NCBI GenBank assembly: GCA_025352825.1
Contig: JANXSG010000239.1
Span: 1 to 64,000 of the forward strand
Reading direction: 5' to 3'
Source of the DNA: Chthonomonadaceae bacterium
GTDB taxonomy: Bacteria; Armatimonadota; Chthonomonadetes; Chthonomonadales; Chthonomonadaceae
DNA: 64,000 nt
Numbering within the stretch: the stretch's first letter is position 1; the number at the start of each line of letters is the position of its first letter. Below, in pieces: positions 32,310 through 54,830 of the stretch. A program made the translations under genes and the position numbers. Below the pieces are notes generated by a model that saw only the letters and a program-made list of their open reading frames with translations, had not been told where the DNA came from and ran no database searches.

Positions 32310-32646
32310 AGGTGAAGTATGGAATGTGAATTTTACCCCATCTTTCGGAGCGGAAATCCAGAAAATCCGACCGGCGGTCATCATGAATGCAGAAAGTATA
32401 GGCAGGCTGCCGCTTAACATTGTAGTACCAATAACGAACTGGCGTACTGAGTATGCAGAGTTTGACTGGTTCGTATCACTATCACCAACCACAACAAACG
32501 GGCTAAATAAAGAGTCTGGTGCGGACACATTTCAAGTTAAATCCATTTCCGAAAGTAGACTTGTTGAGAAGTTAGGCGAGCTGACCAGCGATCAAATGGC
32601 GGACATTGCAAGCGCAATAGCACTTTGTATCGGTTATGTATCTTAA
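32296..32646 (+). CDS. Type II toxin-antitoxin PemK/MazF family toxin
   Basis: 'MKPRRGEVWNVNFTPSFGAEIQKIRPAVIMNAESIGRLPLNIVVPITNW', 'DTFQVKSISESRLVEKLGELT'. Confidence 0.9.
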   Translation: MKPRRGEVWNVNFTPSFGAEIQKIRPAVIMNAESIGRLPLNIVVPITNWRTEYAEFDWFVSLSPTTTNGLNKESGADTFQVKSISESRLVEKLGELTSDQMADIASAIALCIGYVS

Positions 32647-32670: not shown

Positions 32671-32702
32671 AAGCCCCTCTCCAATTTTTGGGAGAGGGGC
32701 TT
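32671..32702 (-). terminator. Rho-independent terminator aagcccctctcc-aatttttg-ggagaggggctt
   Basis: 12-bp perfect stem 17 bp beyond the minus-strand stop; minus-strand read continues TTTTATTTATAAA; may act bidirectionally. Confidence 0.8.
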
Positions 32703-32718: not shown

Positions 32719-35700
32719 CTAGTGCTCGTTGCTCACATTCGGATAGAACTGAGGCGAGAGTGTCTGATAGTAAAGATCTGTAGTACTCGCACGTGTACTT
32801 GTCCAGAATATCCATATCTTATCTGCAAATGGATCCTTGAACGCCGCTACCTGCCCTTCATTGACCGCTGAGTCAGTTGGCATGACGATCTCGGAAGTGG
32901 TCTCATCTCCTGTGCCGCCGGATACACTCATCTCATCACCCCAGGCTACTGAGTATATAAGACCGTTGTAAGATGCGTTTGCCGGATCTGAGCTGCTGTA
33001 CTTAACCTGAATCACATTACCTTCATCTATCTCAGTAAAGTATATTCGCCCACGCGCATAGTCTATTTCATAAGGTCCAACTACGTGCCCTCCCGGGCCT
33101 GGCTGAACAGTCACCGATTGTACAGATTGTATCCCCTGGGCGTTGGGGGCTGTTAGCATCACAGGTCGAGGCAGCCTAATCATCAGTCGCATGGCCTTGT
33201 AGTAGATCGTGGAGGTCGCTTTACCAGAAGCAGCACTCTTATGATATAGCACCCACAATCGATCTACAGGTGGCGCAGAGCCAGTGTTTCCAAACAAGCC
33301 TTGCGGAGTAGCTAATTGATACCTGGTATTTGCACCACGATCTATAATCGCTACAGGATTCGTGTTGTTCCCCACTGAGGAAACCGCAGGATGTGATCTG
33401 AAGCCCGGATCGTTTACCAGCCCGCTTTGCAGGAATGCATCACTTCGAACGATGTTTGTCTCGTCACGGGAGACATCGACACGCATCACCTGTGGTGCAT
33501 AGCTTACAGTGACCCTATCCCCTCTCAACGGGGTGATATTGGGGAAATTAACATTTCCAGATCGGGTATCCACGATCAAGTGTCCACCTGAAAGCACGCC
33601 TTGATCCGCCCCAGAGGCATCGCGTGAAACTAGATCATAGGTCACTAAGCCAGATGCTGGATCGAACTGCCCTTTCTGAATGAAGGTCGGTCTTCCTTTC
33701 GCATCTGCTGACGAATCAGCGATGTTAGGTCGGCCATTGATATGATATTTCACACCATTCCGAATAAGATCAACCTGTATGTTATCCGATATCGAATTTC
33801 CACTTCGCAATACCCAGGATGCATCGCGTGCTGTATAGGAACTTGTCGCCCCCACCCTTGTCAGTGTTTCATTAATTACTGGTGGAAGCTGCATAAGAGA
33901 TAGTGCTCCTAGTTGCAGATCAGTTCCGGTTTTAGGTGCAATTCGATTGATACTATACCTGCTCTTCAGTACCTCCACAGTCTGGCGATTCTGAAGGGTT
34001 CCCGTGTAGTACAGATCAATTGCATCCACTACATTGCCACTTGCCGGATCAGTTACTCTGGTATAGACCGGATAAGGATCGCTCTGCCATACCAGACCGC
34101 CCGGAGGATCCAGTTTGCGATCTCCAGTGGAAACCACATCGCTATTGGTTGCTGTCTGCTGATACCAGCCCGATTCCAAGTCTTTCATGTTTCCCGATGT
34201 ATTTGCATTGAAGTCGTAGTACAGAGATGTTTGCCCAGAGCTGCCCGAGTGCCAGAATAGGTAGAGCAGCTTCTGTGCCGGATGAATCCCATCCGCTTCA
34301 AAACTGATCTCAATCGGCTTCGGACTAAGTTTAGCAAGCGCAGGATCATTCAGGAAGGATAGTGTCTGATCTGGAACCCCTTTCACATTTCCATTGAGTG
34401 TCGAATAGAACGTTCTGGTCTCCGTTTGCTGAGATGCTGGGCTCTGAGCAAAAGTAGGTCTGCTTTTATCAATATTTCCCTGATAGAACAACCACGCCTC
34501 ACCATTTGGATCGGGGATGATCAGTCCATTCGCCTTCACCAGGGTAGATACTGTCGTAGCCGGGCTGGCAAATTTTGCCGTCTGGGCAGCTCGAGTTCCA
34601 GGAAGATATGGCGGTACTATCGTCGGATTGAAGGCTGCGGCTACCGCCTCTGCCTGAGTAGATGGGAACAGTTTGTTGAGAGTTCCAAGATCAGGGAAGA
34701 GACCATAGGTCGCTCCTCCAGGGATTCCCCACCAGCGGCCGTCAATTCCGCTGCTAACTACATTCCCCGTTCGTGCAAAGTTGAAGTCGTTTCCTGCAGG
34801 GCTTCCACCAACAGGGCTTGGCAGACTGGTATAAGCCAGTGAGTAGGGCGCATTTGCATGGATACCTCCATTATCCCAATATGGGCTTCCTGCCTGCTGT
34901 CTGTTCGTGGTGAAATACAGCCACACATCAGAGTTTGTTGCAGTGGGGAAACGCAGTACTGCAGGCAGGGCATTCATACTTGCCTGCTGGTTTAGCCGCT
35001 CTTGCGCGGACAATATTGTCGGATCGGTGGGATCGAATGTATCTATCTGCCCCAGTGTTCCAGCGGTGACTCCATTTGTTATCCGTGCCTCCCTCACCTG
35101 AAGAGCGAGACTAAATGTAGGCTCGGCGAACTTTTCAACAGGCGTACCGTCCGGTCTTGTGCTGCCCGGCGATACTGCCACATTCAGTATTCCATCATGA
35201 TCCGTTCCTACCGTGGTGTTCGCGCCGGAAGACGCAAGCCACTCTCGCCACTGAATTGGCGTCTCATCCTCAAATGGGAAGATGGGAGCCGAATAAGTCC
35301 CGGAAGGCGTACCCAACGGTATTGCCATTCCAATTCTTGGCTTACTACTCTGCGGCTGAATTGTCGCGTTAGAAGGGGAATCGGGTATCAAAGCAGTCGT
35401 ACCCAGCGAATCTCCAGGCAGCGGCTTGTGCAGAGTTGGCATCGGCTGAAAGCCAGGAACCCAGTTGGAGAATGTATTGGCAGGCAGTCCAGTGGCTATT
35501 GCTGCCGAGATATCGCTCTGCAGAACATTCGGGTTAGGAATGCCATTCGGGTTGGCTGTACTCTGCCACAGCCAGCTATCCTTGAAATCCAGGGTGCCAG
35601 GCTGACTGTGCAAACTGGTATGGTCAAAGGAGGACACAACCCCGATATTACCCAGCCCAGCATTGGCGCTGCTATCAACAAATGGTACAGCAAAGAGCGG

Positions 35701-38700
35701 TAGATTACTTAGTCTATTGACCTGATCACTCACTAGCTGAGCGGAAATGGCATTACCTGCGCCGGGATAAATAAGCAGGGCAGATGAATTCACCGCCGCA
35801 TTAGGTGCTCCCAGAAGTTTGGCAATTCGCAGATCGACCAGGTTGATATTACTAGTACTGACCAATGTAAATGGTTGGAAGAAGACACCCAGCTTGGCTG
35901 GATCGTCCCACGGTGATACAGCGCCAGGCATACTTGGCGCAAATGGAGATAGGTAGTATGGCGGAGCATTCGCCCCTACAGCCTTGGCGGAATACCCTGT
36001 TCCTTGAGGAAGTTTACCCAGATGGATCGTCTGTTCTCCCACATTCAGCGTCACGTTAGGAGCTACAGACAGTCCTAATTCGAAAGCTCTGTAGGCATCA
36101 TCGATGACGCTTGTGCCAGCAGCGCTTCTCGAGTCATCATATGCTGCCTGTGGATTATAGATACTCGACTGAACACCAGGCGAAACCGTCCGAACAATTG
36201 CCTCCGCAAGATAACCTCCAGCCGGGTATCCGAATGTCGAATTCGTTCCATTTAGACTGTTCATCGGCCCGACCATCTTTGTGTTATTTAAGCCTAGTAC
36301 TGTCCCGTGTATGTCGGTGAAGGTAGAGCCGAACTTATAGGTAGTTCCATTATAGGTATAGCTCTGCTGCCCACGGTTCACATTTGCCGGCTGGAATTTA
36401 GGCACATTCACCGAGAGCTGCACAGGCGTGGGGCGCAGCAAGTCAATAGTTAGTCCTGAGGGATTGTTGGTGTCCGGAATCACTCTAGGATCAGTGAGTA
36501 TCGCCTGACCAGAATTTAGTTCCTGGCCAGACTGTGTCACCATGCTGATAGCATTCGATGGTATCACAGGATAGTCGATCGTGTTTTGGCCGTCCGAGGG
36601 AAGTTTCTCCCAGGGAAGCGGGTTCATGACAGAGGTTGGCCCGCCACGCCAGCTCGGAGCCTGTGTATGAGTCTGAACAGTGATTCTCCGCCCGGTCGAG
36701 TTGAAAAGCTTACTTCGGTCTGTAATCATCAGCGAATTGAAAATAGTTGCCCCAGTGGCTTGATAGATCGAATTCTTCCCATCTTCAGTCATCGGAAGCG
36801 GTGCAAAAAGGGCTTTCGGAGTACCCACGATAGTATTCACTGCAGAATTAGCATTCCCATTTCCCAGTACTTCGGTTGCTAATTGTGGATTCGATTTAAC
36901 AATCGAATTTATATCCGGCCCCATACCAATAATGTTGGGTTCACCACTACCCATCTGAATACCGTTATTCCACCCGCGCACCGTAAGCGCAAGCGGATTG
37001 GTGATATAGATCGAGCGGGGCTGGCCCAGCAAGTTAGCTTGATTTGCCGTGGCGCCAAGAAGAGTTGCAGATTTTCCCTTAAAGTTCAGCTGCCCGGCGT
37101 TCATCGTAATGGTAGGCGTTCGTACCGTAAGCGCAGGCGAGTTCCCACCGCTGCCATGTGCCAATGTCTGAGCAAGGCTTACGGTAACCGTAACCGGGTA
37201 GTTGGTAGATCGCGGTGAATACTTCAGGTTGGCAGTCGGGTCGATCGGTATTGCCGCTTTCGCCACCCAGGTAAAGACATTCTGTGCATTGCCAGTAAGC
37301 TTAGCTACACCGCCACCATTCACATCCCACTGAATTCCCCATATGCTCAGTGGAGCATTTAATGAACCAACGTCTCCCGGCCATCCATTGTTCAGAACGA
37401 TTCCACCAGGAACACTGGAAGGGATAGTAGCGCCGCGTGAACCGCTCTGAGCCATTCGGAAAGTAACGGTGAATGCCGGCCTGCCCGTACTGCGCGCAGG
37501 GTTCATCGGGTCACTGTCCTGTCCGTGATAGACACCCCAGGCCACAGCGTACAGCTTCTCACCCCAATCGACGGCTAGTGAACCCGTAGGGCCAGCAGTC
37601 AGATTTCCTGCTTCAGGTGCGCCATATTTTCCTATGGAAGGCGCGCCGTTCTCGTCCACAGCAGGAGTATGCGCAATTCCATTCGAGCCGTTATTCAGCG
37701 CCATCAAATCATACTCTTTTTTAGTATAGAGATTGACACCGCGGATATCAAAGTCGATCGTGCCGTCCGTCACCAGAGTAGAACTGGGTTCTCCTGGCCC
37801 GGTCGTACCGGAAGCCTGTCCTGTCACAGGATTGATGGCTGGAATTCCATAAGCTCGCATCTGGCCCAATTCATCGCCTTCCACCAGCATTCCATGCGGA
37901 ATACCTGTGAGTTGGCTTGGCGCTACAGTGGTTGCATTAAATTTATCACCACCCACCGCGATAACAGAAGCAGATCGTGGGGAGGGATCAGACTGCTGCC
38001 AGATGAGAGGAAGTATCTGATTCATCCCTGAGCCATCATCTATAGTGTTCAGAGCAAACCCACTCAGAATCCCGTCATCATCCCCAAATACCAGCGCAGG
38101 TATACTCGTCGTCGAATTCGGGAGATTAGTCGCAAACCCCGGCTGAGCCGTCAGTAAAGTAGCTGTAGGAGTACAGTTCGTATTTGCTCCCGTGGAGCTG
38201 TTTCCAGTAGCGATAAATGCATTTTTGGTGGTGCCAGGCCCTGTGGGCGAGGCATTCAGAGCATACACCGTACCATTGTTCTGGACTACGTAGCAGACAT
38301 CCGGAAGGACGCTTGCGGCATCTATAAGTTTAGGATCCCACAATAGAGGCGCGCTTCCCCGGAATCCAGGATCGAGCGCTGTCGTTTTGGTATCACCTTC
38401 GACTGGCTGCGGTGGATTACTAGTCCAGGGATAGACCCATGTAAGTGTATCCACGACGGGGGCGGTACCTGCAGGTGCGGCTTCAGCAACGGAATAGACT
38501 CGTCCAGAGCAAGTGAAATAGAGATTGCCCTTGAAGACAACCGGAGTGCTTGGAGCTGCGCCAAGCGAGTTACCCTTCTCCGGGTAGAGCCAGCTTAATT
38601 TTTCCAGGAAGGGTGGAGCACCTGTTGTGAAGTTAATAAATATCTTGTCATGGCCAGGATATAGCCCATAGACATGCCCGTCACCTGAGCTTGCAAACAC

Positions 38701-41187
38701 ATTGCTGGAAGCTCCATTCGCTGGATTAAAGCTTAGCGAAGAAGGGAACGATACTTTGTTTGCATCGTCCACATAAGGATTCGGGGCGGTATATCCCTGA
38801 GCTGTAGCTACAATTTGTTTATCCGCATGATAGTAGTCACCGCGTGGACGAGGCCACGTCCAGATTCGCTGCGTGGTACCAGAATATCCCGTTTGAGTGC
38901 TGAGGGTGAAGTCGCCGCGGCCACCGGCATCAAAAGCAAACACACGCCCATTTGCGTTAGGCACCAGAAGAAGTTGTGGTGCGAAGGGATTCGGGTCGAT
39001 ACCGCCAGGCAAATGGTCAGGGTCTTCAATAAGAATCGGAGCCCCCTGGACACCGCCAAAATCTATCTGCGTATCCCCTTTAACAACCATTTTTCCATTG
39101 GTGTCCGGTATGAGGTCGCCATCATAATACTGTCGTGGCAGCTTCGATCCAGCGTTGATGGGAATAAATGTGTTCGCCTGATCAGCCGCAGCTCCAAATC
39201 CCGAACCAGGCGCAGGATAGATGCCTTTAAGCGAACCTGTATAGTTTGGATCATACGAGACAGCATTGAGGGTGGCTACATGATTTACTTCCAGCGGCCT
39301 GTACGAGGGATATGTCCAGTAAGCAGTGGTAGTCTGAGTTGCTGGATCCCCATATGGGTCGAGTGAGTAGACATGCCCCGCAGAACCATTGGCACTTGTG
39401 GTGGCAAAGTAGATCATCGGCCGGACATTACCATCTCTGCAGCGTACATTCGCAAGCAGCGGAGATACACTCGATGTGCCTCCCCCTGTGTTGGCAGTTA
39501 GTCCACTATTACTGTCCGGCAATCCCGCATATCGCCAGACCACTTTTTTAATAGAGGTGATAAAAGCTCCATTGAAAGTGGTATCGCCATTGCGGTTGTC
39601 CAGGCAGTAGAACACAGGGATTGTCGTGAGTGCAGTAGGATCTGCCGCCGATCCTGAGTTTGCCTTGGTAGGATCCACGTACGATCTTAATGGCGGTGTA
39701 GTCAGTGCAATCTCAGGAGTCGCTTCTTCTCTCACAACGTAGAAAAGAGGCTGGACTCCTTTAGAAGGCTGAAGCGTGGTATCAATTTTGTTTGTGCCAG
39801 AAGCAGAAGCCAGCACTCTCCCATAGGGCGCTATCGTAAAAATGGGAGCGTTGGTACGGGTTAAATTGGGCGGAAGTGAAATCGGAGCATTAGGCGAATC
39901 TGCTGGCACCAGTGCGGATTGAGACACAAATCGAACAGCATCCGCCACAACTACAGGTTTCCTTCCGCCGTATATCGCTCCGTTAACATCGTCTGGTGTC
40001 AGTGCAAATATGCTCACGGTAAGCATGTCGGAAGGGGCGCCCGAGAATGGGAAGGACGCAGGACTCAATCCTCCGCCCTGCAAGTGTATCCATCCTGATT
40101 CGCCCAGATCTACCACAAATATTCGACTGTATTTAGCATCGTTGATTCCCCCAGTATCTGCATTTCCGTTCCCAAGTACAATTGTATTGAACTGCTTGGT
40201 TCCATTATTGGCAATTCCGACTGTCCACGTACCTGGAACACCAGCTGCCCGATTGGGATTACCCCAGCTTACGCGTACGAGAGCACGGGTGACATTGGAG
40301 TGCGCAAGTCCATCGACAAGCAGAGTTCCATTAGGTACCGTTCCGTTTCCAGGGGAATAAATATCCACTCCGTAGCGGCCTGCAGCCATACGCCCGCATG
40401 CCCAGACTGCGAGAGGTTGCCCAGCGATAATCGAGGCTACCAATGCACTGTGCACGGAGCTATAGACTGCAGGTGTCGCGTTTGGCAGCAGAGCAATTTC
40501 TGCGGTAGTGGCTGGTGAAACCTTCGGCGGAACATTAGAATCTCTATCAACCAGAAATGTGCCTGGTATTGCCGGTGTATATGCATAATCTTTATCACGA
40601 ACTGTATTTGCGAACACGGGGAATGCAAAACCGCCTGCTGGAGATCGATAGTCATTGGCATTGCCAGTAACAGCCACAAGTGGGCACTGCCAGATACCGT
40701 TAGCCCCGAAATACTGCATGAGCGGCCTGTAGCCAATGATTTCCGCATTAGGAGGATTAGGAGCTATATAAGGCTGAATGGATGAGGCAGGACTGAAAAG
40801 ATTGGTTCCTTTCAGGGCGCCAGTTATCTCTTCATTATCGACAGTGACTGAAGTAGGGAACGTACCCACTGCAGAAATATCACGAGTGAAAGGCCACACC
40901 CATCTGGGATATGCAAGACCGGGATCACTAAAAAACTTGCCATTCACAGCGTCGTTATAAGACTTGTTGAAGAACTCATTATAACCTCGGTTTACAGGAG
41001 AACCATTGAGAGTTTGAGCACCAGGGCCGCTGAATGGTGATATGTTTCCACCGTTGATCAGCCAGTCTGTCCCGTCAAATAGCAGCGGAACCTGTGCTTG
41101 AGCGGATAGGCCTGTCAGCATCAGCAGCGAACTAACAGTGAGTGCCCTTGTTATTTTAGATAGGAAGCGAATATCTCGTTGCTTCAT
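32719..41187 (-). CDS. Giant exported multi-domain protein (~2822 aa) with PQQ-like propeller blades and golvesin-like domain; proposed PilY1-like
   Basis: Single uninterrupted ORF; signal peptide 'ITRALTVSSLLMLTGLSAQAQ'; blades such as 'GHVYSLDPYGD', 'GRVFAFDAGGRG', 'GDGHVYGLYPGHD', 'NNGTVYALNASPT'; start 41187 with AAGGAAACTCCT upstream. Confidence 0.85.
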   Translation of the reverse strand: MKQRDIRFLSKITRALTVSSLLMLTGLSAQAQVPLLFDGTDWLINGGNISPFSGPGAQTLNGSPVNRGYNEFFNKSYNDAVNGKFFSDPGLAYPRWVWPFTRDISAVGTFPTSVTVDNEEITGALKGTNLFSPASSIQPYIAPNPPNAEIIGYRPLMQYFGANGIWQCPLVAVTGNANDYRSPAGGFAFPVFANTVRDKDYAYTPAIPGTFLVDRDSNVPPKVSPATTAEIALLPNATPAVYSSVHSALVASIIAGQPLAVWACGRMAAGRYGVDIYSPGNGTVPNGTLLVDGLAHSNVTRALVRVSWGNPNRAAGVPGTWTVGIANNGTKQFNTIVLGNGNADTGGINDAKYSRIFVVDLGESGWIHLQGGGLSPASFPFSGAPSDMLTVSIFALTPDDVNGAIYGGRKPVVVADAVRFVSQSALVPADSPNAPISLPPNLTRTNAPIFTIAPYGRVLASASGTNKIDTTLQPSKGVQPLFYVVREEATPEIALTTPPLRSYVDPTKANSGSAADPTALTTIPVFYCLDNRNGDTTFNGAFITSIKKVVWRYAGLPDSNSGLTANTGGGTSSVSPLLANVRCRDGNVRPMIYFATTSANGSAGHVYSLDPYGDPATQTTTAYWTYPSYRPLEVNHVATLNAVSYDPNYTGSLKGIYPAPGSGFGAAADQANTFIPINAGSKLPRQYYDGDLIPDTNGKMVVKGDTQIDFGGVQGAPILIEDPDHLPGGIDPNPFAPQLLLVPNANGRVFAFDAGGRGDFTLSTQTGYSGTTQRIWTWPRPRGDYYHADKQIVATAQGYTAPNPYVDDANKVSFPSSLSFNPANGASSNVFASSGDGHVYGLYPGHDKIFINFTTGAPPFLEKLSWLYPEKGNSLGAAPSTPVVFKGNLYFTCSGRVYSVAEAAPAGTAPVVDTLTWVYPWTSNPPQPVEGDTKTTALDPGFRGSAPLLWDPKLIDAASVLPDVCYVVQNNGTVYALNASPTGPGTTKNAFIATGNSSTGANTNCTPTATLLTAQPGFATNLPNSTTSIPALVFGDDDGILSGFALNTIDDGSGMNQILPLIWQQSDPSPRSASVIAVGGDKFNATTVAPSQLTGIPHGMLVEGDELGQMRAYGIPAINPVTGQASGTTGPGEPSSTLVTDGTIDFDIRGVNLYTKKEYDLMALNNGSNGIAHTPAVDENGAPSIGKYGAPEAGNLTAGPTGSLAVDWGEKLYAVAWGVYHGQDSDPMNPARSTGRPAFTVTFRMAQSGSRGATIPSSVPGGIVLNNGWPGDVGSLNAPLSIWGIQWDVNGGGVAKLTGNAQNVFTWVAKAAIPIDPTANLKYSPRSTNYPVTVTVSLAQTLAHGSGGNSPALTVRTPTITMNAGQLNFKGKSATLLGATANQANLLGQPRSIYITNPLALTVRGWNNGIQMGSGEPNIIGMGPDINSIVKSNPQLATEVLGNGNANSAVNTIVGTPKALFAPLPMTEDGKNSIYQATGATIFNSLMITDRSKLFNSTGRRITVQTHTQAPSWRGGPTSVMNPLPWEKLPSDGQNTIDYPVIPSNAISMVTQSGQELNSGQAILTDPRVIPDTNNPSGLTIDLLRPTPVQLSVNVPKFQPANVNRGQQSYTYNGTTYKFGSTFTDIHGTVLGLNNTKMVGPMNSLNGTNSTFGYPAGGYLAEAIVRTVSPGVQSSIYNPQAAYDDSRSAAGTSVIDDAYRAFELGLSVAPNVTLNVGEQTIHLGKLPQGTGYSAKAVGANAPPYYLSPFAPSMPGAVSPWDDPAKLGVFFQPFTLVSTSNINLVDLRIAKLLGAPNAAVNSSALLIYPGAGNAISAQLVSDQVNRLSNLPLFAVPFVDSSANAGLGNIGVVSSFDHTSLHSQPGTLDFKDSWLWQSTANPNGIPNPNVLQSDISAAIATGLPANTFSNWVPGFQPMPTLHKPLPGDSLGTTALIPDSPSNATIQPQSSKPRIGMAIPLGTPSGTYSAPIFPFEDETPIQWREWLASSGANTTVGTDHDGILNVAVSPGSTRPDGTPVEKFAEPTFSLALQVREARITNGVTAGTLGQIDTFDPTDPTILSAQERLNQQASMNALPAVLRFPTATNSDVWLYFTTNRQQAGSPYWDNGGIHANAPYSLAYTSLPSPVGGSPAGNDFNFARTGNVVSSGIDGRWWGIPGGATYGLFPDLGTLNKLFPSTQAEAVAAAFNPTIVPPYLPGTRAAQTAKFASPATTVSTLVKANGLIIPDPNGEAWLFYQGNIDKSRPTFAQSPASQQTETRTFYSTLNGNVKGVPDQTLSFLNDPALAKLSPKPIEISFEADGIHPAQKLLYLFWHSGSSGQTSLYYDFNANTSGNMKDLESGWYQQTATNSDVVSTGDRKLDPPGGLVWQSDPYPVYTRVTDPASGNVVDAIDLYYTGTLQNRQTVEVLKSRYSINRIAPKTGTDLQLGALSLMQLPPVINETLTRVGATSSYTARDASWVLRSGNSISDNIQVDLIRNGVKYHINGRPNIADSSADAKGRPTFIQKGQFDPASGLVTYDLVSRDASGADQGVLSGGHLIVDTRSGNVNFPNITPLRGDRVTVSYAPQVMRVDVSRDETNIVRSDAFLQSGLVNDPGFRSHPAVSSVGNNTNPVAIIDRGANTRYQLATPQGLFGNTGSAPPVDRLWVLYHKSAASGKATSTIYYKAMRLMIRLPRPVMLTAPNAQGIQSVQSVTVQPGPGGHVVGPYEIDYARGRIYFTEIDEGNVIQVKYSSSDPANASYNGLIYSVAWGDEMSVSGGTGDETTSEIVMPTDSAVNEGQVAAFKDPFADKIWIFWTSTRASTTDLYYQTLSPQFYPNVSNEH

Positions 41188-41284: not shown

Positions 41285-44200
41285 TTAGAAAGGTCTGTCG
41301 CTGTACTGCGGTTGTTCTAATAACGATGTAGATGTGCCGCCGGTTCCACTTCCAATGCTTCGCTTGATGGGGCCCTGTGCGGCTGGGAATGTCTCGTTGG
41401 GTATCAACCAAACGATTGCGCTGCCAGGGAGCGTACCAACAGGCGTATTCTTTGTCAGAGTGCCATTGCTTAGCCGATATAGCTGATTATTGATGGTGGT
41501 GGTGCTATAGCCGTCATACATATTATTTGCATCTACATGAAGATAGTAGTCTCTGCTTCTGATCTCAAATACTTCGCCGTGAATATCGCCTCGTGTGATA
41601 TTGGGTGCATTGAATACAATTTTTACATTGTCCGGCCCAGTGTAACTATTTGTGATCAAGTAGTGTGGGTAGAACTGCATCGTGTTCGCATCGTAATCAG
41701 CTTGATTGAGCCGCCGAATACTGGCTGCAATAAGCCGCCGCCCTGTCAGATGATAGTAGTCCTCGCTGGAAACCATCCACTCGACCACCGCTTCTGCTTT
41801 GCCATTCACGGAGGTCGGGCGAAGTACATAGCATCCAGATGCATCTGCCATTAGATAACGTGGTGTCGTGTTGGCTGCGTTTGTACCTACGCTGAACTCT
41901 TTAAAATACGTCGGATTATGGATAGCCTGATGCCGAACGATAGTTCCGTTTGCATCCACTATGGCAATACTATTCACTATCGTTGATACATAGCCGTCCT
42001 TATTCGCCTGCGCATTGCTGTTAAAATCTCGCTGAATGACAGCAATCGATCCGCCAGGCCCTTCCGCTCCACCACCATCTAATCCAGTAACAACCGTTCC
42101 GCTATCCCTCGCCGACTGCCGAACGTTATCAACTGCAGAGAGCATGTACAGTTTTTTGGAGCTTGGATCAATAAACTCCTGAATAGTTCGATAGTGATAC
42201 TTCAGATTTTGTTCCGAAAGGGAGCGAGTGGTGAATACCACCTGGTGCTGCATAGACGCCGAACTCCCATCCGACCCTGTCATCACCAGGACGGCGCCAT
42301 TGGATGAGTAGGCATCGACCACCTCAATATTTCGGAAGTTTCCGCTGTCCGCAATAAGATAGTGCACTACATATGAATTACCATTCGAAGTATATGTCAC
42401 TCCACTATCTCTATTCACGATGCTATAGTTGACCCCATTCTGAGGATACACTTCCGTGAACACTTCGACATCACTGGGCTGGTTCAATGTAAGTGGGTCA
42501 CCTGGGCGTAGAACCTGAAGTTCGTTCGAGACCGAATGAATTTCCCATGTTACACCGCTGCCTTTATCCATTTGCAGCACACGATTATTGCCGGTATCGA
42601 CCACCAGATAGTCACTGATGGATGTACGACGAACGACCGACGGCCTGGAGAAGGCGACTTTGGTCTGTGTGATATTTCCAGAATTACCAAGAATGCCACC
42701 TGTAATCCCAAATGAGTTGGTGGAATCTACGCTCCAGACAGCGTCTCCATTCCAGTTCACTTCGATCAGCCGTGTGTTATCTGCAATGGTGGTAAGTCTG
42801 TTGTCCAGAGCAGCAAGTCCTCTTGGAGTACCTACATAAACCACATTCGCACTACCTAATGGGGCATTGATAACTGGATTTGATGTGATGGCTGGATTGA
42901 GTGGTGCAATAGTCGATTGAATATGCACTCTGGAAACTCCGTTGCTAAATAGAAGCGGCACTAGTCCGGAAGGTGTATCTATGGGTAGATCCACGGAGAC
43001 AACATTGCCATTTTCTAATCCAAAATAAAGTGAACTGCCAATGATAGATGGGCCGCTTCTAGTAGTAGAGTTGCCCAGTGTGGGCTGAGGAATCACTATG
43101 TACCATAGAAGGTTATCCAACGGAGCTTTACCATTCCCAGCAGGATACCGCTCTACAGGATTTCCATTCACAACGAGTGTAATAGGCAGCGCCGTGTTAA
43201 AACTGTCGCTTCCGCTGGATGCACCATTACCAAGAGAAAACGAGTTTCCTCCCGAGCGAAAATCAGTTATCGTGATGGTATCCGTATCCGTATCTGCAGT
43301 AAAATTGACACCAGGCATCAGCTTCACATATTGTGATTGATTGGAAGCGTTGGTATAGCGAGTGGTATCAACCTGCTGAAGGGAAACAGTCGTAATGTCT
43401 GCGGGCAGTGCCCCTTTATTCACAGTAAATGATAATGTGGGGTGCGACTTCAGCGCAAGAATTACCGTATGGGAGGTATTTCCAACAAGGGCATTGCCCA
43501 GCGAATAGATAATTCCATTAGATTCTGCCACATTCCCAATAGCTTTGTAGCCAGTGAGTGACTGTCCGGTCTGGTTTACTAATCTAGGCGAGATAGTATC
43601 TGTACCATAGACTCCACCATTCGGCGGGGAAAACATCCAGTTCATCTTGGATCCAATAGCAGGTGTTACTGCCTTATTGATAATTACCTGGTCATGAAAA
43701 CTGCATATTCTATCTGGAGCTGGTTTGGTCGAAATCGATTCTGTGCGCGTATCAAAAACACTCACTAGCAGGTCATCCGAGGAAGAAAGCACCGGAGTAC
43801 CAGTTAACAACTGCTCCTGTGTACCACTCGGATTGAAGGTTACAAAAGAACGCGTTCGGAATACCGAAATGAAATCTTGAGCGACAGGGATTGTGCCGCC
43901 TATTTTAATGGCCGACCAATCCACTGTGTAGTCTGCAAATATTCTATTGCCCGCAGCGATAGCCGCTGGCAGTACCGCGACCATATCGCGTGCACCCTGA
44001 GTTCCCAGAAAATTAACCGTGAAATCACCTTTTGAGTAGTAGTATGTTTTGACTTCGCTGCCGTTCGCATCGATCTCGTGCAGTACCGGAAGCAGAGATG
44101 GGCTGGCAGATGATTGCAGAGGAATTGCGGGAGCCCACCATGGTACTTGCCCCCTGTCTAAGGTTGCTCGGAACTGGCTGGGACTTCCGTTATTCAACAT

Positions 44201-46099
44201 CGGCTCTTTGCGGGTACTGAACCACATTCCCATCACCGAGTCGGGATTCGGGGAGCCATTGGCTCCATCATGAGTGGGCACATACACAATTTTGTCAATC
44301 GCGCCTGTAGAATCATCCTTCACATAACCTACCGACACATTTCCCACCACATCATTCAGACCGATGGAGAGCGCAAGTACCGGAGGCGCATACCCAGCTC
44401 TGTAATCCGAATTTGGGTTAGGATCTGCTCCGAAAACGTTATTTCCTGTCACAGGATCGACAGGAACGATTCGCCATGGAGATGTTAAGCTATTCTGCGA
44501 ATTATGCTGAACCGTGAACAGTACTCCCTCGGAATAGGCTGGAGAAGGAGCTGGCAGAAACAGACGTACACTCGCAGGCCTGCGTGGAATCGTAAGGCTT
44601 GGGCTTAAATTTCCTGTAGTTGGTCCGTTTCGCTGCCACAAGATCGTGGTAGTGCCCAGAAGATTACCGCTTGCATCCTGCGGACGGGCATTGAATGCGA
44701 CTGTTACTCCAGTGGCTGTAGTCACAGTTAGTACGTCTAACGGTCGGCTGTTAATAGCATCCCATACGGAGACTATGGTAGGCGTACTCACGATGTCGTT
44801 CGCGCCTGTTCCGGTGATAGTCTTCAAATCTGCACGCCAGACCTCATCAAATGGCGCTCCAAAACTGTGGTCCGGAATACCGTCATCGATTAACTGCCTG
44901 CCACTAAGGCTTTGATCCGGGTTGGTATCAAAAGCGTGAATAATATTCAAGTTATCGACGTAGTAAGCCATGCCCTTCGCCACGACAGCACCAGTTCCGG
45001 GATTCTGATCTGTAACGTTATCATCGATGCTCGCCCACTTTAAACCCAGGGTACTTCCAATGTTTTCTGAGATACTGGTCGAGCGGCGTACATTGGCATT
45101 TGCAGAAGGAATGCTGCTCAGCCAGGAAAGTATATTATAGGAGAATTTAAGATCAGTCACCGGGGCATTAAGGAAGGTTTCACCACTGATAACTCCCCGG
45201 TTGGCGCCATATCCTCCAACACGGTCATTAATACTGCTTGCTGAACCAGAAGAACTGACCAATAGATGTCCTGCTCCAAAATCTCCCGCTGAAACAAAGG
45301 GCAGCCCATTCGTCAGCACTACCGGCCCTAAAATATTGGGGTCTGTAATAGCGCTCAGGGCATGTCTTGAAGCAGATCCGCCTGCGCCTAATCTCAATAC
45401 GTCCGTATTGCTCAGGCTGTATGGGTAGTTTATGATGGGGTGATTGGCAGGTGGAAAAGGAAGTGAAACAGTTCCGATTGCACCACTGAAGTTCATCACA
45501 GGAAGCAGAAATGATCCACTATTACTAATGGTGAGGCCGCCCTCATCTTCCAGCCATATCGTACCGCCTGCATCCGCATAGTGCCGCAATTTTTCGCGCT
45601 CATCGGGACTGAATGAAATCGCCTTCGAGGAGGCAATAAGCACGAGATCAAACTGAGAAAGATCGTTTTGGCTGACAGAGTCCAGATCAACTTCCCAGTA
45701 AGCGGCCATATTTTTACCCAGTTGGGAACCTACTTGAAAAGACTGGTATTCGCGAGTGCCTGCAGTGAAGGCAGGATCGGCGGGGTTCCTGGCCGACCAC
45801 TCATTAATCATTGCCTGGGTGATGCTGGAGGACGCGAGTGGATTCACGAGATTCCAGCCGGCGGGCTTCAGGTCCGTGCGTTTATCCAATATATAAAATA
45901 AGTGTGGAGTACCATTTTCTTTGGCATTTCCGAGTACCGAGGCATTGGAAACAAGCACACATACTTTGACCTGCCTGCGTGAGCTGAAGTAGTTCGTAAC
46001 ATCCGCAGATGTACGGGACATACCACAAAGTAAAGTAGCTGCGGATAGAAATACCATATATATGCTGCCCCAGAATTGTGGGGATTTACTATTTTTCAT
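41285..46099 (-). CDS. Large exported protein (1604 aa) with GATase/DUF4159-like N-terminal region and beta-propeller-like repeats; proposed PilY1-like
   Basis: Signal-like N-terminus; 'DLSQFDLVLIASSKAISFSPDEREKLRHYADAGGTIWLEDEGG'; 'VSVDLPIDTPSG', 'NVVYVGTPRGLAALDNR', 'VVDTGNNRVLQMDKGSGVTWEI'. Confidence 0.8.
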   Translation of the reverse strand: MKNSKSPQFWGSIYMVFLSAATLLCGMSRTSADVTNYFSSRRQVKVCVLVSNASVLGNAKENGTPHLFYILDKRTDLKPAGWNLVNPLASSSITQAMINEWSARNPADPAFTAGTREYQSFQVGSQLGKNMAAYWEVDLDSVSQNDLSQFDLVLIASSKAISFSPDEREKLRHYADAGGTIWLEDEGGLTISNSGSFLLPVMNFSGAIGTVSLPFPPANHPIINYPYSLSNTDVLRLGAGGSASRHALSAITDPNILGPVVLTNGLPFVSAGDFGAGHLLVSSSGSASSINDRVGGYGANRGVISGETFLNAPVTDLKFSYNILSWLSSIPSANANVRRSTSISENIGSTLGLKWASIDDNVTDQNPGTGAVVAKGMAYYVDNLNIIHAFDTNPDQSLSGRQLIDDGIPDHSFGAPFDEVWRADLKTITGTGANDIVSTPTIVSVWDAINSRPLDVLTVTTATGVTVAFNARPQDASGNLLGTTTILWQRNGPTTGNLSPSLTIPRRPASVRLFLPAPSPAYSEGVLFTVQHNSQNSLTSPWRIVPVDPVTGNNVFGADPNPNSDYRAGYAPPVLALSIGLNDVVGNVSVGYVKDDSTGAIDKIVYVPTHDGANGSPNPDSVMGMWFSTRKEPMLNNGSPSQFRATLDRGQVPWWAPAIPLQSSASPSLLPVLHEIDANGSEVKTYYYSKGDFTVNFLGTQGARDMVAVLPAAIAAGNRIFADYTVDWSAIKIGGTIPVAQDFISVFRTRSFVTFNPSGTQEQLLTGTPVLSSSDDLLVSVFDTRTESISTKPAPDRICSFHDQVIINKAVTPAIGSKMNWMFSPPNGGVYGTDTISPRLVNQTGQSLTGYKAIGNVAESNGIIYSLGNALVGNTSHTVILALKSHPTLSFTVNKGALPADITTVSLQQVDTTRYTNASNQSQYVKLMPGVNFTADTDTDTITITDFRSGGNSFSLGNGASSGSDSFNTALPITLVVNGNPVERYPAGNGKAPLDNLLWYIVIPQPTLGNSTTRSGPSIIGSSLYFGLENGNVVSVDLPIDTPSGLVPLLFSNGVSRVHIQSTIAPLNPAITSNPVINAPLGSANVVYVGTPRGLAALDNRLTTIADNTRLIEVNWNGDAVWSVDSTNSFGITGGILGNSGNITQTKVAFSRPSVVRRTSISDYLVVDTGNNRVLQMDKGSGVTWEIHSVSNELQVLRPGDPLTLNQPSDVEVFTEVYPQNGVNYSIVNRDSGVTYTSNGNSYVVHYLIADSGNFRNIEVVDAYSSNGAVLVMTGSDGSSASMQHQVVFTTRSLSEQNLKYHYRTIQEFIDPSSKKLYMLSAVDNVRQSARDSGTVVTGLDGGGAEGPGGSIAVIQRDFNSNAQANKDGYVSTIVNSIAIVDANGTIVRHQAIHNPTYFKEFSVGTNAANTTPRYLMADASGCYVLRPTSVNGKAEAVVEWMVSSEDYYHLTGRRLIAASIRRLNQADYDANTMQFYPHYLITNSYTGPDNVKIVFNAPNITRGDIHGEVFEIRSRDYYLHVDANNMYDGYSTTTINNQLYRLSNGTLTKNTPVGTLPGSAIVWLIPNETFPAAQGPIKRSIGSGTGGTSTSLLEQPQYSDRPF

Positions 46100-46156: not shown

Positions 46157-49100
46157 TTAAGAACCAATTACACGATCACTCTCACCGAAATACAGTCTTC
46201 CCGGACATACCGGCAGACGCGGTATGGGCGGCAGTACTTGTCGTACCGAGGGCAGAATCTCCACACCATTGCTCATTACAGCCGGCTGTACGACGCTGCG
46301 TAAGGCTCGGCGGGATCTGTATAATGTATTTGCACCGTTAATATCCATAAGTCCGGCATCGGAAGGGTTCAAATACGGCATTGCCAGCACCGGATCGTAC
46401 ACATATCTTAGTCCGCGTGCGATTGGGTAGTCTCCATTCACGGGGCTTTTCTCTAATGGAGTCCGGAAGTCTTTCGTCAGGTCTTCTCCAGCGACATAGC
46501 CCGCTGGGTCGTGCCCCATCATATGCGAGTCGGGTACTGGCTGCGCGCTGGAACCGTATACTGCAGGGAAATATCCCCATCGTGCCATCCATAAAGCCTG
46601 ATCGCTAGCGGAAGCGCTATAGTTCTCCACAATGGAACCATAGAGTGTAATACGTACATCTGCGGGTTCATTGTAAAATGGATAGAGATCTTTCATCTGG
46701 CGATCTGCAGGTGTATCTGTTTTATCGTTATAAGAACTGCGTATCCCTTTGGCTGTATACGCCAAGCGAGTATCGTTAGGATCTGGATTCAAAGGATATC
46801 CCGGAATTACAAAGAAGGATCTCTCCTGTGCATACAGCATCGCCTCAATGCGTACATCCATCGGAACCACCATTGCGGCTCCAAGAAGATAGTCCGTGCT
46901 TCCTCCGGTTCCCAATCTCGTGGATGCTCCGGATTGATCGATCATGAATCTCAGCAGATTATCTACCCCAGGATTAGGATTAATAATGTACTGGCCATTT
47001 CCGATATCAAGCGGGAATGCCTTCTGCTCGAAAAACGGGGCAATCCCCACTGGATTAGGAATATTTCCACCGGTAATACCTACAGGATAGTCCACTCCAG
47101 TACTAAACTGATATAGCGTGTCCAGCGGCCCGGCCGGATCGTTCGGCGGCAGACCCGGATTAATCATCAGGTTCATATAGGCAGGACCGGGTTCCATTGC
47201 CGCATGACGAAGCATCAAATAGAGTGGACTGCCGCTGCCCGAAGTCTGATAGTCAGTGGTAGGATCGACTCCAAAACTAAAACTGGTATCGTAGTTTTGT
47301 CGTGTCAGCCCAATCTGAGTATTGAATGCATCCAGATCTGGGGTCATTCGACTCCAGCTATTAGACTGGTTTTGCGGTGACATAAACATGGTTGTATTTA
47401 CACAGACGTAGTCTTTAGCCAAAATAGCACAACTGGAAGCACGCTCTTTTACAATACTTCCACCAGTACTGAAGGTTCCATCACCTTTTACAAGGCTCCC
47501 TTCGATATATGCTGTACCACCTGTAACAATGGTAAGATGCACACGGCCAAGTTTATGATGTGTTGCATCTTCTGCCGCGACCGCTGGGTCTGTATAGGTT
47601 CCGAATGTCCCTTTTACTCGAACATTCCCTTCAAGCATCAATACCAGATTTACCCCGTAGGAATTCGGGTCTGAGAAAGGATTAACATATCCTGCTGGAG
47701 CGTTGGGATCGTTCTGAGCTAGATCACCATCATGATCGAGAGCATTTACAGGAAAGATATTCCCGTTCGGCAGTTGGTAGTGAGTCCGTTCCCAATCAGA
47801 TAGTGGAATTTCAATTACCTTCCCGCCCTGCTGTGTGGTTGGGCTGCCATCCGGATAGGTAAATACTTTATCGTCATCCCGAGTAATTCGTATCCGATCA
47901 CCTAGCAGTTCGACAAGCGCGCCCGGTGGAACATAGAACGGCCCCTTCCAGTAACCCTGAGCAAAGCCCGCTTTCGGATTCAACCAGTCGGCGCGAAGCG
48001 AGTATCCGCCATTTAATCCTGTAGTAGATGTCTCTGGCTGAAGGTCATCAAAGTTACCCACGTAAATTCCGCCGGTTCCCCAACCACCCTGACCGTTGTT
48101 GTAAGTTGATGATAGCCATTTTCCGTCATCGCGGGTCATGGCGCGATATCTGCTGACTCCGGTACCGTCCGCTTCTGTATCTATATTTGGCGGATCGAGG
48201 AAGGATATGCTTCTAGTACGGCCATACAAATCTGGCCCGGTTGAGCTGTCGCGAATAATCCCAGAAAGTGTATCAAAGTTAGGGCTGTCACTAGGAAGAA
48301 CAATTCCATTATTTCCCAGCGCTATATCGATCGGCTGGTTTACCGCCACCTGATTCACAGGAGCCTGCGTAGTCCCTCGTGTGCCAGCTAACTTAATCGT
48401 GCCATCTACATGCAGTCCTTCAGACATACCATTAAATCCAGCGCCGCGAGGACTTTCGTAGAGCAGAACATCTCCGCCTATCTCCAAGTCACTTCCAACG
48501 CGCATTGGATATCCAAAAAGGATATGATTATTTGAAATGCCTGTTGGAAAGCCGGATGCATCTGTGTTCAGTGCAATATCCGGATCGCCTAACGGCATAG
48601 ATAGATCGTGTTCACCCACGGACACTCCCATGAAGTTCGTCATATTACGATGATCTTTGTTCGTAATCCAGCGAGCAAACTCTGTTCCAAGCGGCTTATA
48701 CATCACCAGTTCGCTTCGGAGCCGTGGCGAGGGGCCGTTCTGCACAAATATAGTGGGATCGGTCCCGCTTCCCAGGTCACCTGTACGGCCGACCGATTCT
48801 ACTTTGATCGCTTGACTCTTTGGGTCATCCGCATGTGGATCATAGGTGACGCGAATCAGACTGCGTCCGCCTTTTACATAGAGCCTTGTAAAGTGCAAAT
48901 CATGAAGCCAGTAGTAGTCCGGGTCAGACGCGCCTACAGGGCTGTAGCCAGGGATTACAGTGGGGGCTGTCGGCGTTGGACGCCAGTCTGCTCCTGCTTT
49001 GGTGGTCATCAGCTGCGTTTCACAGTAGACCAAGCCCATCTCAGCAAACGACCGGGCAATTTGAGAATCCTTACTTCGGCCAGCAGCTACTAGATTTCGA

Positions 49101-49234
49101 GCGATCTGCGCGACGAATATTCCACCAATGAATAGCAGCACAAAAAGCACAGCAATAGCGACTATCAGAGTTTGACCACGATGGCTGCGTCTGACTATTT
49201 TAAGGGGGCGTGTTTGCGAGATTAGTTGATTCAT
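46157..49234 (-). CDS. PilX-like large minor pilin/pseudopilin (1025 aa)
   Basis: 'RRSHRGQTLIVAIAVLFVLLFIGGIFVAQIARNLVAAGRSKDSQIARSFAEMGLVYCETQL'; PilX-type helix without the +5 Glu. Confidence 0.72.
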   Translation of the reverse strand: MNQLISQTRPLKIVRRSHRGQTLIVAIAVLFVLLFIGGIFVAQIARNLVAAGRSKDSQIARSFAEMGLVYCETQLMTTKAGADWRPTPTAPTVIPGYSPVGASDPDYYWLHDLHFTRLYVKGGRSLIRVTYDPHADDPKSQAIKVESVGRTGDLGSGTDPTIFVQNGPSPRLRSELVMYKPLGTEFARWITNKDHRNMTNFMGVSVGEHDLSMPLGDPDIALNTDASGFPTGISNNHILFGYPMRVGSDLEIGGDVLLYESPRGAGFNGMSEGLHVDGTIKLAGTRGTTQAPVNQVAVNQPIDIALGNNGIVLPSDSPNFDTLSGIIRDSSTGPDLYGRTRSISFLDPPNIDTEADGTGVSRYRAMTRDDGKWLSSTYNNGQGGWGTGGIYVGNFDDLQPETSTTGLNGGYSLRADWLNPKAGFAQGYWKGPFYVPPGALVELLGDRIRITRDDDKVFTYPDGSPTTQQGGKVIEIPLSDWERTHYQLPNGNIFPVNALDHDGDLAQNDPNAPAGYVNPFSDPNSYGVNLVLMLEGNVRVKGTFGTYTDPAVAAEDATHHKLGRVHLTIVTGGTAYIEGSLVKGDGTFSTGGSIVKERASSCAILAKDYVCVNTTMFMSPQNQSNSWSRMTPDLDAFNTQIGLTRQNYDTSFSFGVDPTTDYQTSGSGSPLYLMLRHAAMEPGPAYMNLMINPGLPPNDPAGPLDTLYQFSTGVDYPVGITGGNIPNPVGIAPFFEQKAFPLDIGNGQYIINPNPGVDNLLRFMIDQSGASTRLGTGGSTDYLLGAAMVVPMDVRIEAMLYAQERSFFVIPGYPLNPDPNDTRLAYTAKGIRSSYNDKTDTPADRQMKDLYPFYNEPADVRITLYGSIVENYSASASDQALWMARWGYFPAVYGSSAQPVPDSHMMGHDPAGYVAGEDLTKDFRTPLEKSPVNGDYPIARGLRYVYDPVLAMPYLNPSDAGLMDINGANTLYRSRRALRSVVQPAVMSNGVEILPSVRQVLPPIPRLPVCPGRLYFGESDRVIGS

Positions 49235-49295: not shown

Positions 49296-51557
49296 TTAGT
49301 GCTGAAGGTTCCGAACCTTGATTTTCTGTGTGAGCGACGTCGATTGGGGGGTGCTGGTGGCCGAATCGTACAGCCGTGCCTCTAGCGAGAAACTCATAAG
49401 TTCTCTTGTAAGGTAGTCCACTTTTACCACATCGTTCGGCCGATTCATCTGAAAGCTGTACGTAATCTCAATAGGCGCTGCCGGGATAGTGCCGTCCACA
49501 GTTCCGGTATTATCAGACATATAGAGGGGAAGGCTGTTAGTGCCGACTAAATTTGAGTTGGGCTGGGATGTATCAGATGTATCTGGAATACTGTTAAACT
49601 CTATATATCCAATATGGAGGCGCGGATCGGAAGAGTTACCCGAATTTCCCACGTCTTCATAGTTGATTTTGTATTGATTAAGACCTGTAATATCCCCGGA
49701 GTTCGAAGCGACACGCGTGTACAGAATTCGGTGGCCGTAATGTACACCAGCCTGTTGGTCCGGGCCGTATATTTTCTCGGAGCCCGGCACAATTCGTACC
49801 GTAGAGTACCAGTTAGTACCCGCATCTAAGGGCGAAGTAAGACCAGGCGGATTCAACTGTTGGCCATTCCAGATGGTGGTAGGCAGCGCGGTTCGCATGT
49901 CGATATATCGTTTATCGTAGGAACTTGTCAGATTGCCATTCACATCTGCTGGGCTATAGTAGGCCGGCAGCGGACGATTTGTAGCATCATGTATCAATAC
50001 TGTTGAAGGGAACGAGAAATTAACTGCACCGCGCTGTGGATCCACCGTGAATGCAAATTTTATATTAGATATATTCGCAGGATCAAACACTCCATTTATT
50101 AAATGCGGCCCCACATCGCCCGTATCGCCAGCTGCCAGCGCTGGATCCTGACCAGGAATCGCCTGGTAGTGCAGCACCTTCCGATTTACGAAGTTATTTC
50201 CAATATCGCGCACCTCATACTGGTAATAATCGAGAGGCGACTGGTTCATAGGATCGCTTCCAGGGGAAATTGATCGATAGACAGAAACTCTGTACGGAAG
50301 TTCCCAGTGTGTGTATTGTGATAAAAAAGTAGGCGAAGCGGTAGTAGGAGCTTCGTTACCACTATCTGTAAGAAGCGTAGGTGAGGCAGGGTCGTTTTGC
50401 ACAAAGGCTGGTGCAAAAGTTGCCAATGGGCGAACTTCTGGCCTGGGATGCAAGTACTGCTTGGTATTGGCTGTGTCCGCAAAAGTATCGTATTTAATGG
50501 TGTCGTCGTCGTTACGCTGAAGTGCAATCATATCCACATAATTAAGCGGCATCAGAGAATTGGCAGCAGCCTGCCAATTCTCTGCGATCTGGACTTTTCC
50601 ATCACCGTTCAGGTCTTTCCAGCCGGCGACAGCCCATTTATCCGAGCTGCCAGCAGTAGCCTCTTTTCCACCAGCAAGTGAGTTATCGTAAAAAAAGTTG
50701 GGATCGTCTAGAACTATTTTTCCGGTCTTGTCGCCCGCACCGTCTGTATGGAACAGTCTGAGGTTTGGAATGAATGTCGGTTTTGCAGCATTGCTGGTTG
50801 GATCTGGAATAAAGGTGAGCACTTCTGCTTTATAGAAGGTGTAACGGTTGTCTTTATCAGTACCAATAGCAGGGTCGGACCATCTGTTGCCGTACGAATT
50901 TGCAGGCATGCCATTCTGTGCAGCGTCTCCGGGTAAGTTTGGATCGATAGCATGGGTGTCTACTGTTGTTGCGTTGTGAACAAGCCCGATCCAGATGCGA
51001 TTCAGTGTAAGTCCAGGAGCTAACGGAAAGGCATATCCACTCAAACTGGAACCGATGCCGGAATACATGGGCTTACCATTAGTTGGGTCGATAGGTGTGG
51101 CGCCAGGCGTCTGATCTAATTGGCGGGCAGGAGCAACGTACTGCACCATCGTAAAATACGTTGGCATCAGTATTGGGGCACCCGACTGATCGTTGAACCA
51201 CAAATTCAGAGGTGACTGGGCGTTATCAAACACATATACTGAGTTCGAGAGCTCACCTGATATCTCACGCATCAGCTCACGGGCTTTGGTCTGAGTTTCT
51301 ATCTGTGTCCCAGATTTTCGGGTAAGGTTGAAGCTCTGCACGAGCGGCTTGAAAATCAACGTCAATAATATGGAAGTAAGCGCTATTACCACAAGCAGCT
51401 CAATAAGCGTAAATCCATTTATCAAAACCGGGCTTTTTTTGGGCATCTGAAATTCAAACTCAGCTGTTCCGCTAACTAGTTTCCTCATGGCTGATTCTGC
51501 CTTATCTTTATTCAAAGTATCTGCAATCGCTCGGATCGAAACAGGCTGGTTATACAT
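49296..51557 (-). CDS. PilW-like prepilin-type protein (753 aa ORF)
   Basis: '[65 protein letters not shown]'; true start may be internal. Confidence 0.82.
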   Translation of the reverse strand: MYNQPVSIRAIADTLNKDKAESAMRKLVSGTAEFEFQMPKKSPVLINGFTLIELLVVIALTSILLTLIFKPLVQSFNLTRKSGTQIETQTKARELMREISGELSNSVYVFDNAQSPLNLWFNDQSGAPILMPTYFTMVQYVAPARQLDQTPGATPIDPTNGKPMYSGIGSSLSGYAFPLAPGLTLNRIWIGLVHNATTVDTHAIDPNLPGDAAQNGMPANSYGNRWSDPAIGTDKDNRYTFYKAEVLTFIPDPTSNAAKPTFIPNLRLFHTDGAGDKTGKIVLDDPNFFYDNSLAGGKEATAGSSDKWAVAGWKDLNGDGKVQIAENWQAAANSLMPLNYVDMIALQRNDDDTIKYDTFADTANTKQYLHPRPEVRPLATFAPAFVQNDPASPTLLTDSGNEAPTTASPTFLSQYTHWELPYRVSVYRSISPGSDPMNQSPLDYYQYEVRDIGNNFVNRKVLHYQAIPGQDPALAAGDTGDVGPHLINGVFDPANISNIKFAFTVDPQRGAVNFSFPSTVLIHDATNRPLPAYYSPADVNGNLTSSYDKRYIDMRTALPTTIWNGQQLNPPGLTSPLDAGTNWYSTVRIVPGSEKIYGPDQQAGVHYGHRILYTRVASNSGDITGLNQYKINYEDVGNSGNSSDPRLHIGYIEFNSIPDTSDTSQPNSNLVGTNSLPLYMSDNTGTVDGTIPAAPIEITYSFQMNRPNDVVKVDYLTRELMSFSLEARLYDSATSTPQSTSLTQKIKVRNLQH

Positions 51558-53828: not shown

Positions 53829-54830
53829 TTATGGTTGAAAATCCGCAGGAAGTTGGTCGAAAGCTTTTTTAATATCTAGCTTAATCGCAGAGCCTGATAG
53901 AAGGAGCGTCAGCACTTTCCCACTGCCAGCTGTGGCAGCATGATGGGTAACGTACGTAATCACAGTTCGGTCGGTAGGTGGGTTCTTATACTTTAGCTGG
54001 GTGAGAATTGGCTTCCCGTTTACCCCAAGATCGGAGCAGCCATTATCCGGAGTAACAAGGCCAGATTTGTGCGTCCAGTCTGCGGCATAGTGAAGTTCAT
54101 ACACTCGATTGCCAGAAGAGTCCTTCACTGGTGCTCCATAATCATCCAGCATCGGCCCGATATCCATGCTATCCATCAAGTAAAATAGTTTAGGCTTAGA
54201 TGCATAAGAGGCATCTGGTAGATCCGGATCTGGTGTCAGGCAGCCGTTCGTTCCTTGCCAGGTAACCAGTATTCCATTATCTAGAAAGGCTTCGCCATTC
54301 GAATGTGAGATAGATGGCCTGGTAGCCTGCGCAAGTGAAATGGGTGAGTGAACAGGATAGTAAACCTGAGTAACTGCCTGTTTATCCTTCACCGTATTAT
54401 CAGCGCACAGAAACGTAATATAGTCTTTTACCTGTTCGCCGTAAAGGTATCCATTATTAACAGTTTGGGCTCCTGCAGATTTAAAGTTTTCACGAGCGTC
54501 GTTCATAGCCACAATGGATTGGGCAGAATCAGTAGAAAGCGCCGGACGGTAGAGAGGAGAACCATCCACGGGGACTGGATTCACCGGCACCACCCCATAG
54601 CCAAATAACGACGACGGGTAGCGCCCTTCATCTTCGTAAAAAAGACGTGATCCGGTATAAATAGCATGAAGATTGCTGATAGTATTCGTCTGGCGTGTCT
54701 GTTCCCGTATAGCAGCAAACACCGGAAATAGTATCGCTGCAAGTATCGCTATAATTGCGATCACTGTTAACAGCTCTATCATAGTAAATGCTTTAGAAAA
54801 CCGGTCGCGCCGGATGATTGATATTTCCAT
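53829..54830 (-). CDS. Prepilin-type protein (333 aa), paralogue of next gene
   Basis: '[67 protein letters not shown]'. Confidence 0.92.
   Translation of the reverse strand: MEISIIRRDRFSKAFTMIELLTVIAIIAILAAILFPVFAAIREQTRQTNTISNLHAIYTGSRLFYEDEGRYPSSLFGYGVVPVNPVPVDGSPLYRPALSTDSAQSIVAMNDARENFKSAGAQTVNNGYLYGEQVKDYITFLCADNTVKDKQAVTQVYYPVHSPISLAQATRPSISHSNGEAFLDNGILVTWQGTNGCLTPDPDLPDASYASKPKLFYLMDSMDIGPMLDDYGAPVKDSSGNRVYELHYAADWTHKSGLVTPDNGCSDLGVNGKPILTQLKYKNPPTDRTVITYVTHHAATAGSGKVLTLLLSGSAIKLDIKKAFDQLPADFQP

Follow-up and report, generated by a model that had tools for sequence, protein, structure and literature searches.

A 2,822-residue exported protein closing a type IV pilus operon is a candidate PilY1-like tip component in Armatimonadota

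Results

A giant exported protein is encoded at the end of a pilus operon

The window, i.e., the whole 64-kb stretch of DNA analyzed here from a genome of the Chthonomonadaceae (Armatimonadota), carries a gene, P0001, on the minus strand at 41187-32719, encoding a 2,822-aa protein of 297.9 kDa according to ORF analysis; the plus-strand frame over 32719-41187 is full of stops. The mechanical ORF runs from a GTG at 41277 to 32719 on the minus strand (2852 aa), and its codon 31, ATG 41187, is the likely start, because relatives align from this ATG and an AAGGAAA Shine-Dalgarno-like sequence lies upstream of it. Judged by base composition, a stop-free run of this length has a chance of ~10^-62, and homologues of 2.1–2.9 kaa are present across Armatimonadota. 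The original prediction had described an uninterrupted 8.5-kb ORF of ~2.8 kaa, with correct coordinates and no strand, as the largest gene in the window, and so it is, the second-largest ORF reaching 1,604 aa (P0002). The gene and its flanking signals are as follows.

32719..41187, minus strand: P0001, exported protein, 2,822 aa (ORF, alignment of relatives)
41092..41187, minus strand: signal peptide MKQRDIRFLSKITRALTVSSLLMLTGLSAQAQ of P0001 (sequence, hydrophobic segment in family members)
32671..32702, minus strand: terminator hairpin common to the P0001 gene and a convergent mazF-like gene (folding energy)

The signal peptide ends in ...SAQAQ, and a hydrophobic segment near the N-terminus is kept in 38/41 family members, the three exceptions being truncated or split sequences, which bears out the predicted export. 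The strong terminator predicted downstream is likewise real: its hairpin has a folding energy of -28.7 kcal/mol (z = -5.4) and a U-rich tail on the minus strand, and is missing from the output of a simple consensus terminator scan. A PemK/MazF-like toxin gene (32269-32646, plus strand) converges on the P0001 gene and shares this hairpin; a 110-aa ORF overlapping the start of the toxin gene may encode its antitoxin (31977-32646 for the pair, plus strand).

P0001 closes a run of eleven co-directional genes in the order pilB-pilT-pilC-pilD-pilin-pilin-V-W-X-P0002-P0001, all on one strand with intergenic gaps of 14-208 nt. Its final position in the pilus locus, as originally described, is also kept in relatives. 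The ten genes upstream are:

59647..61443, minus strand: PilB extension ATPase with MshEN domain (domain match)
58363..59595, minus strand: PilT retraction ATPase (TIGR01420, 493.5 bits against a cut-off of 319.1)
57003..58247, minus strand: PilC platform protein (domain match)
55875..56927, minus strand: PilD prepilin peptidase (domain match)
54891..55715, minus strand: type IV pilin (domain match)
53829..54830, minus strand: type IV pilin (domain match)
51572..53620, minus strand: P0005, PilV-like minor pilin with N-methylation motif
49296..51557, minus strand: P0004, PilW-like minor pilin with N-methylation motif
46157..49234, minus strand: P0003, PilX/GspK-like minor pilin, 1025 aa (pilin-type hydrophobic segment after G)
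41285..46099, minus strand: P0002, partner exported protein, 1604 aa (DUF4159/IFT52-like N-terminal domain, PQQ-like and NHL propeller repeats)

P0005, P0004 and P0003 are named PilV-, PilW- and PilX-like from order, size and N-terminal type only. The pilin-type segment of P0003, RGQTLIVAIAVLF, has no Glu at +5, a feature shared with PilX and GspK (PMC7541494); unlike GspK/PilX minor (pseudo)pilins, P0003 is about 1 kaa long, and it matched no named family above threshold. A paralogous relationship between P0001 and P0002 was rejected, as no significant BLAST match exists between them. An assignment to the Verru_Chthon cassette proteins was rejected as well: P0004 matches just the first 60 positions of TIGR02599, at 25.6 bits against a cut-off of 256.5, and for TIGR02599/TIGR02596 the N-terminal methylation segment alone matches, with no match over the full length. 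A literature search on this cassette found no paper.

Further pilus- and secretion-type genes lie on other contigs of the same genome. Contig C109 reads as a PilM-PilN-PilO-PilP-PilQ set, and contig C189 encodes a PilC/GspF-like protein, pilin-like proteins, a GspK-like protein, a GspL-like PilM match and a large secretin; beyond the PilM_2, secretin, PilC and pilin matches, these assignments were made by position and sequence reading. Given the clear PilT in the window, the PilMNOPQ-type set on C109 and the distinct type II secretion system (T2SS)-type set on C189, the window locus is the assembly half of a type IVa pilus (T4aP), with the T2SS encoded separately. A locus for a T2SS component or substrate (GspE/F/G/K/L/M/D without a retraction ATPase) is ruled out by PilT and by the separate T2SS-type set. 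Elsewhere in the window, a tyrosine recombinase/phage-integrase family gene (23401-24381, plus strand) adjoins a TonB-dependent receptor gene (21110-23077).

P0001 combines a Golvesin-like domain, a BamB-type propeller and a conserved C-module

P0001 itself has no Pfam match and no PDB sequence match at E≤1. A full-length match to a characterized family, which the original prediction had named as its refutation, was thus searched for and not found, and P0001 matches no NRPS, PKS or RHS model, as had been proposed. Comparison with relatives and structure prediction delimit the following regions, with residues numbered along the 2852-aa ORF.

39910..40422, minus strand: divergent Golvesin_C-like domain, residues 286-456 (profile link to sister-family domains)
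37828..39600, minus strand: BamB/PQQ-type beta-propeller, seven to eight blades, residues about 560-1150 (relatives' PQQ_2, profile, model)
36313..37560, minus strand: conserved middle region, no family named, residues about 1240-1655 (conservation profile)
32722..36108, minus strand: conserved C-module, no Pfam family, residues about 1724-2852 (found across Armatimonadota)
32740..34950, minus strand: six blade motifs, residues about 2115, 2260, 2337, 2415, 2671 and 2820 (motifs, model)

Golvesin_C (PF25275) is matched above the cut-off in the N-halves of 28/40 relatives; the P0001 copy is too diverged to score. It can be aligned with the first of the two Golvesin-type domains in sister-family members (E 7.7e-35), and this first domain in turn matches their own second, Golvesin_C-scoring copy (E 1.4e-11), which is absent from P0001's own family. 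The sister-family members L042-L051 carry an extra Golvesin_C domain, and L051 has further insertions of that type. PQQ_2 (PF13360) is matched in 21/40 relatives (best 2.4e-23) and not in P0001 itself. Consistent with the blade motifs noted in the original prediction, the N-half family profile matches BamB and designed "Cake" propellers in the PDB, and the N-half model (residues 45-1240; mean pLDDT 69.5, pTM 0.78) finds designed BamB-like propellers and BamB as its best fold matches, together with PQQ propellers; BamB is the closest natural solved fold.

The C-half family has no PDB sequence match, and no Pfam family is found in more than one of 41 relatives over these C-terminal 1.2 kaa, in keeping with the long segments earlier described as having no nameable family. 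The C-half model (residues 1655-2852) has a mean pLDDT of 78.0 and a pTM of 0.82. With six blade-like motifs kept in all family branches sampled, the C-module may be read as a propeller of the sialidase fold that has six blades and carries insertions between blades 4-5 and 5-6, the blade count coming from motifs and fold matches, not from inspected coordinates.

The C-module is constant across the phylum and the N-module is exchanged

Using whole P0001 as the query, a BLAST-type search found the protein in 168/291 Armatimonadota genomes, and the C-half profile extended this to 198/291. A second C-module profile, built from giant proteins of deep lineages, matched 38 genomes, seven of them overlapping; it adds 31 and brings the combined count of the two profile searches to 229/291. 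P0003 is present in 266/291 genomes, and in 190 of the 198 that have the C-module by the C-half profile. The order P0003-P0002-P0001 is found wherever a Chthonomonadales locus has sufficient flanking sequence, and in 17/20 loci of other Armatimonadota families the V-W-X-P0002-P0001 block is kept within the reach of the 20-kb stretches; most of the phylum thus keeps the last five operon genes together. The P0002 family (DUF4159/IFT52-like N-terminus, NHL and PQQ-like repeats) accompanies P0001 across Armatimonadota. When 84,980 bacterial and archaeal genomes were scanned with a pattern, 31 loci were returned, all in Armatimonadota lineages or in bacteria without a lineage name. The giant mostly occurs once per genome. 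Two loci carry homologues split into two ORFs (L109 454-8950, 1,497+1,375 aa; L048 8476-16538, 955+1,750 aa), by frameshift, assembly error or genuine fission. Three loci of two families (L098, L099 and L100) have the giant gene apart from the pilin block; in both genomes of this set that were checked (G228 and G245), P0003 and P0002 lie together elsewhere.

For genomes in which the C-half profile failed or was weak, the region after P0003 was surveyed. In most of these deep-lineage loci, P0003 and P0002 are succeeded by a further giant ORF of 1.4-3.1 kaa; in L134 and L135, both P0002 and a giant are missing from this place. Five of the deep-lineage giants, once aligned, match the C-half profile with an hhalign probability of 100% and E 1.6e-39 over about 780 columns (repeat, E 7.8e-39), and show no match to the N-half or P0002 profiles, which served as negative controls. 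The P0001 family thus combines a constant C-module with different N-modules. In L126, L128, L129, L132 and L133, the gene after the giant reads as PilM (VLGLDIGSS...), with PilN and PilO next in several. Several CxxC pairs (YVCPxCGYS..., CPDCG..., CPGHxFC) are found in the N-terminal part of the giants of L126, L128, L129, L130 and L133; these look like zinc ribbons, which would be unusual for an exported protein.

P0001 shares the gene slot and layout of PilY1 but not its sequence family

PilY1/PilC (PF05567) is the tip adhesin of the T4aP in P. aeruginosa, M. xanthus and Neisseria, and its C-terminal propeller has seven blades and a Ca site. P0001 resembles it in several respects: it has a Sec (type I) signal peptide, its gene lies beside the minor pilins pilV/W/X, it contains beta-propellers with a conserved C-terminal part and variable N-terminal domains, and it belongs to a T4aP with PilB/PilT/PilC/PilMNOPQ. 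In published systems, a PilV/W/X complex carries PilY1 at the tip of the T4aP, and PilX, without Glu5, contacts it; the conserved C-terminal module is combined with N-terminal domains that vary and lie at the extreme tip, and the gene shares an operon with pilV/W/X (PMC7541494, PMC13190605). For the PilX-PilY1 contact, complementation by a beta-strand has been predicted (PMC13190605).

P0001 differs from PilY1 in being about 2.5 times larger (P. aeruginosa PilY1 has about 1,160 aa), in having two propeller regions, a BamB-type one in the N-half and a C-terminal one that is apparently six-bladed and sialidase-like, and in sharing its slot with a second giant, P0002, where there is a single PilY1. 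PF05567 has no match at E≤0.01 in 40 N-half and 41 C-half family segments, and none in the 291 Armatimonadota genomes, in a search run without a positive control. Nor did pattern search detect a conserved DxDxDG-type Ca loop in the C-module; loops of this type are scattered, with none in P0001's family. Homology to PilY1 by sequence was rejected because PF05567 was not found in these segments and genomes.

P0001 as a candidate tip and priming component of the pilus

No function was proposed in the original prediction; the present evidence favours a role at the pilus tip like that of PilY1. Because of the same gene slot, the export signal and the constant/variable layout, we consider it probable that P0001 is a tip/priming component of the T4aP in the role of PilY1, i.e., a functional counterpart that is non-homologous by sequence. 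P0001 would be exported by Sec, and its conserved C-module would dock, together with P0002, on the complex of minor pilins, where the PilX/GspK-like P0003 is the most likely partner. This complex may prime pilus assembly by PilB/PilC and be carried out at the pilus tip, where the exchangeable N-module, here the Golvesin-like domain and the BamB-type propeller, would be presented to surfaces or glycans. Counting against this reading are the missing PF05567, the failure of the pattern search to find a conserved Ca loop in the C-module, the BamB-type propeller in the N-half, the two giants in place of one PilY1, and the three loci with the giant gene apart from the pilin block.

P0001 might instead be a surface or secreted protein that binds or cleaves glycans, with the pilus machinery as its export route and the sialidase-fold C-module being catalytic or lectin-like. 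The best PDB fold matches of the C-half model are indeed sialidases and other glycan-active propellers (E 1.7e-6 at best), and extracellular proteins often contain Golvesin-like and PQQ-like domains. However, TM-scores are low and rmsd values large, the insertions between blades are large, and neither P0001 nor its C-half relatives match a Pfam glycoside-hydrolase family; the likeness to sialidases is one of fold. Furthermore, the fixed place with minor pilins and the mostly one-per-genome pattern suit a structural part better than a substrate, and the genome has a separate T2SS-type set for secretion. We therefore regard this explanation as unlikely.

A true, extremely diverged PilY1/PilC homologue would account for the place of the gene, the signal peptide, the propellers and the variability of the N-terminus, yet it is still harder to reconcile with the data, as none of the 81 family segments matches PF05567 and the solved PilY1 domain is neither among the PDB sequence matches at E≤1 nor among the 50 best fold matches listed; we give it a low probability. 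Equally improbable is a BamB-like envelope scaffold or assembly factor that is co-regulated with the pilus genes and does not leave the periplasm or outer membrane: both profile and fold comparisons place the N-half propeller nearest to BamB, whereas BamB is a small lipoprotein of ~380 aa, the propeller of P0001 is embedded in a 2.8-kaa exported protein as a replaceable module not found in deep-lineage members, and the conserved part is the C-module, which is tied to the minor-pilin block.

Implications for Armatimonadota pili

Armatimonadota make pili; fimbriae and numerous pilin genes are described for Fimbriimonas (PMC4072686). The portions of the literature on Armatimonadota pili consulted mention pilin genes and do not name P0001-type giants. 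Since PF05567 was not found in the 291 genomes, the P0001 family is a candidate for the pilus-tip component of this phylum, and a concrete, testable one, with its gene block conserved over the phylum. Should it have this role, it would show that a different protein of far greater size can serve in tip formation and priming while keeping the "constant base, variable head" design. More tentatively, and with the odds somewhat against it, PilY1 might have given way in Armatimonadota to a tip complex that is not homologous to it, in which two giant multi-propeller proteins (here of 298 and 171 kDa) with interchangeable heads at the N-terminus are mounted on the PilV/W/X-like minor pilins. If true, the T4aP tip would be unusually large, raising the question of how it passes the PilQ secretin. 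Independently of its role, the C-module of this unnamed family, about 1 kaa long, represents a protein family that spans the phylum and has no Pfam entry.
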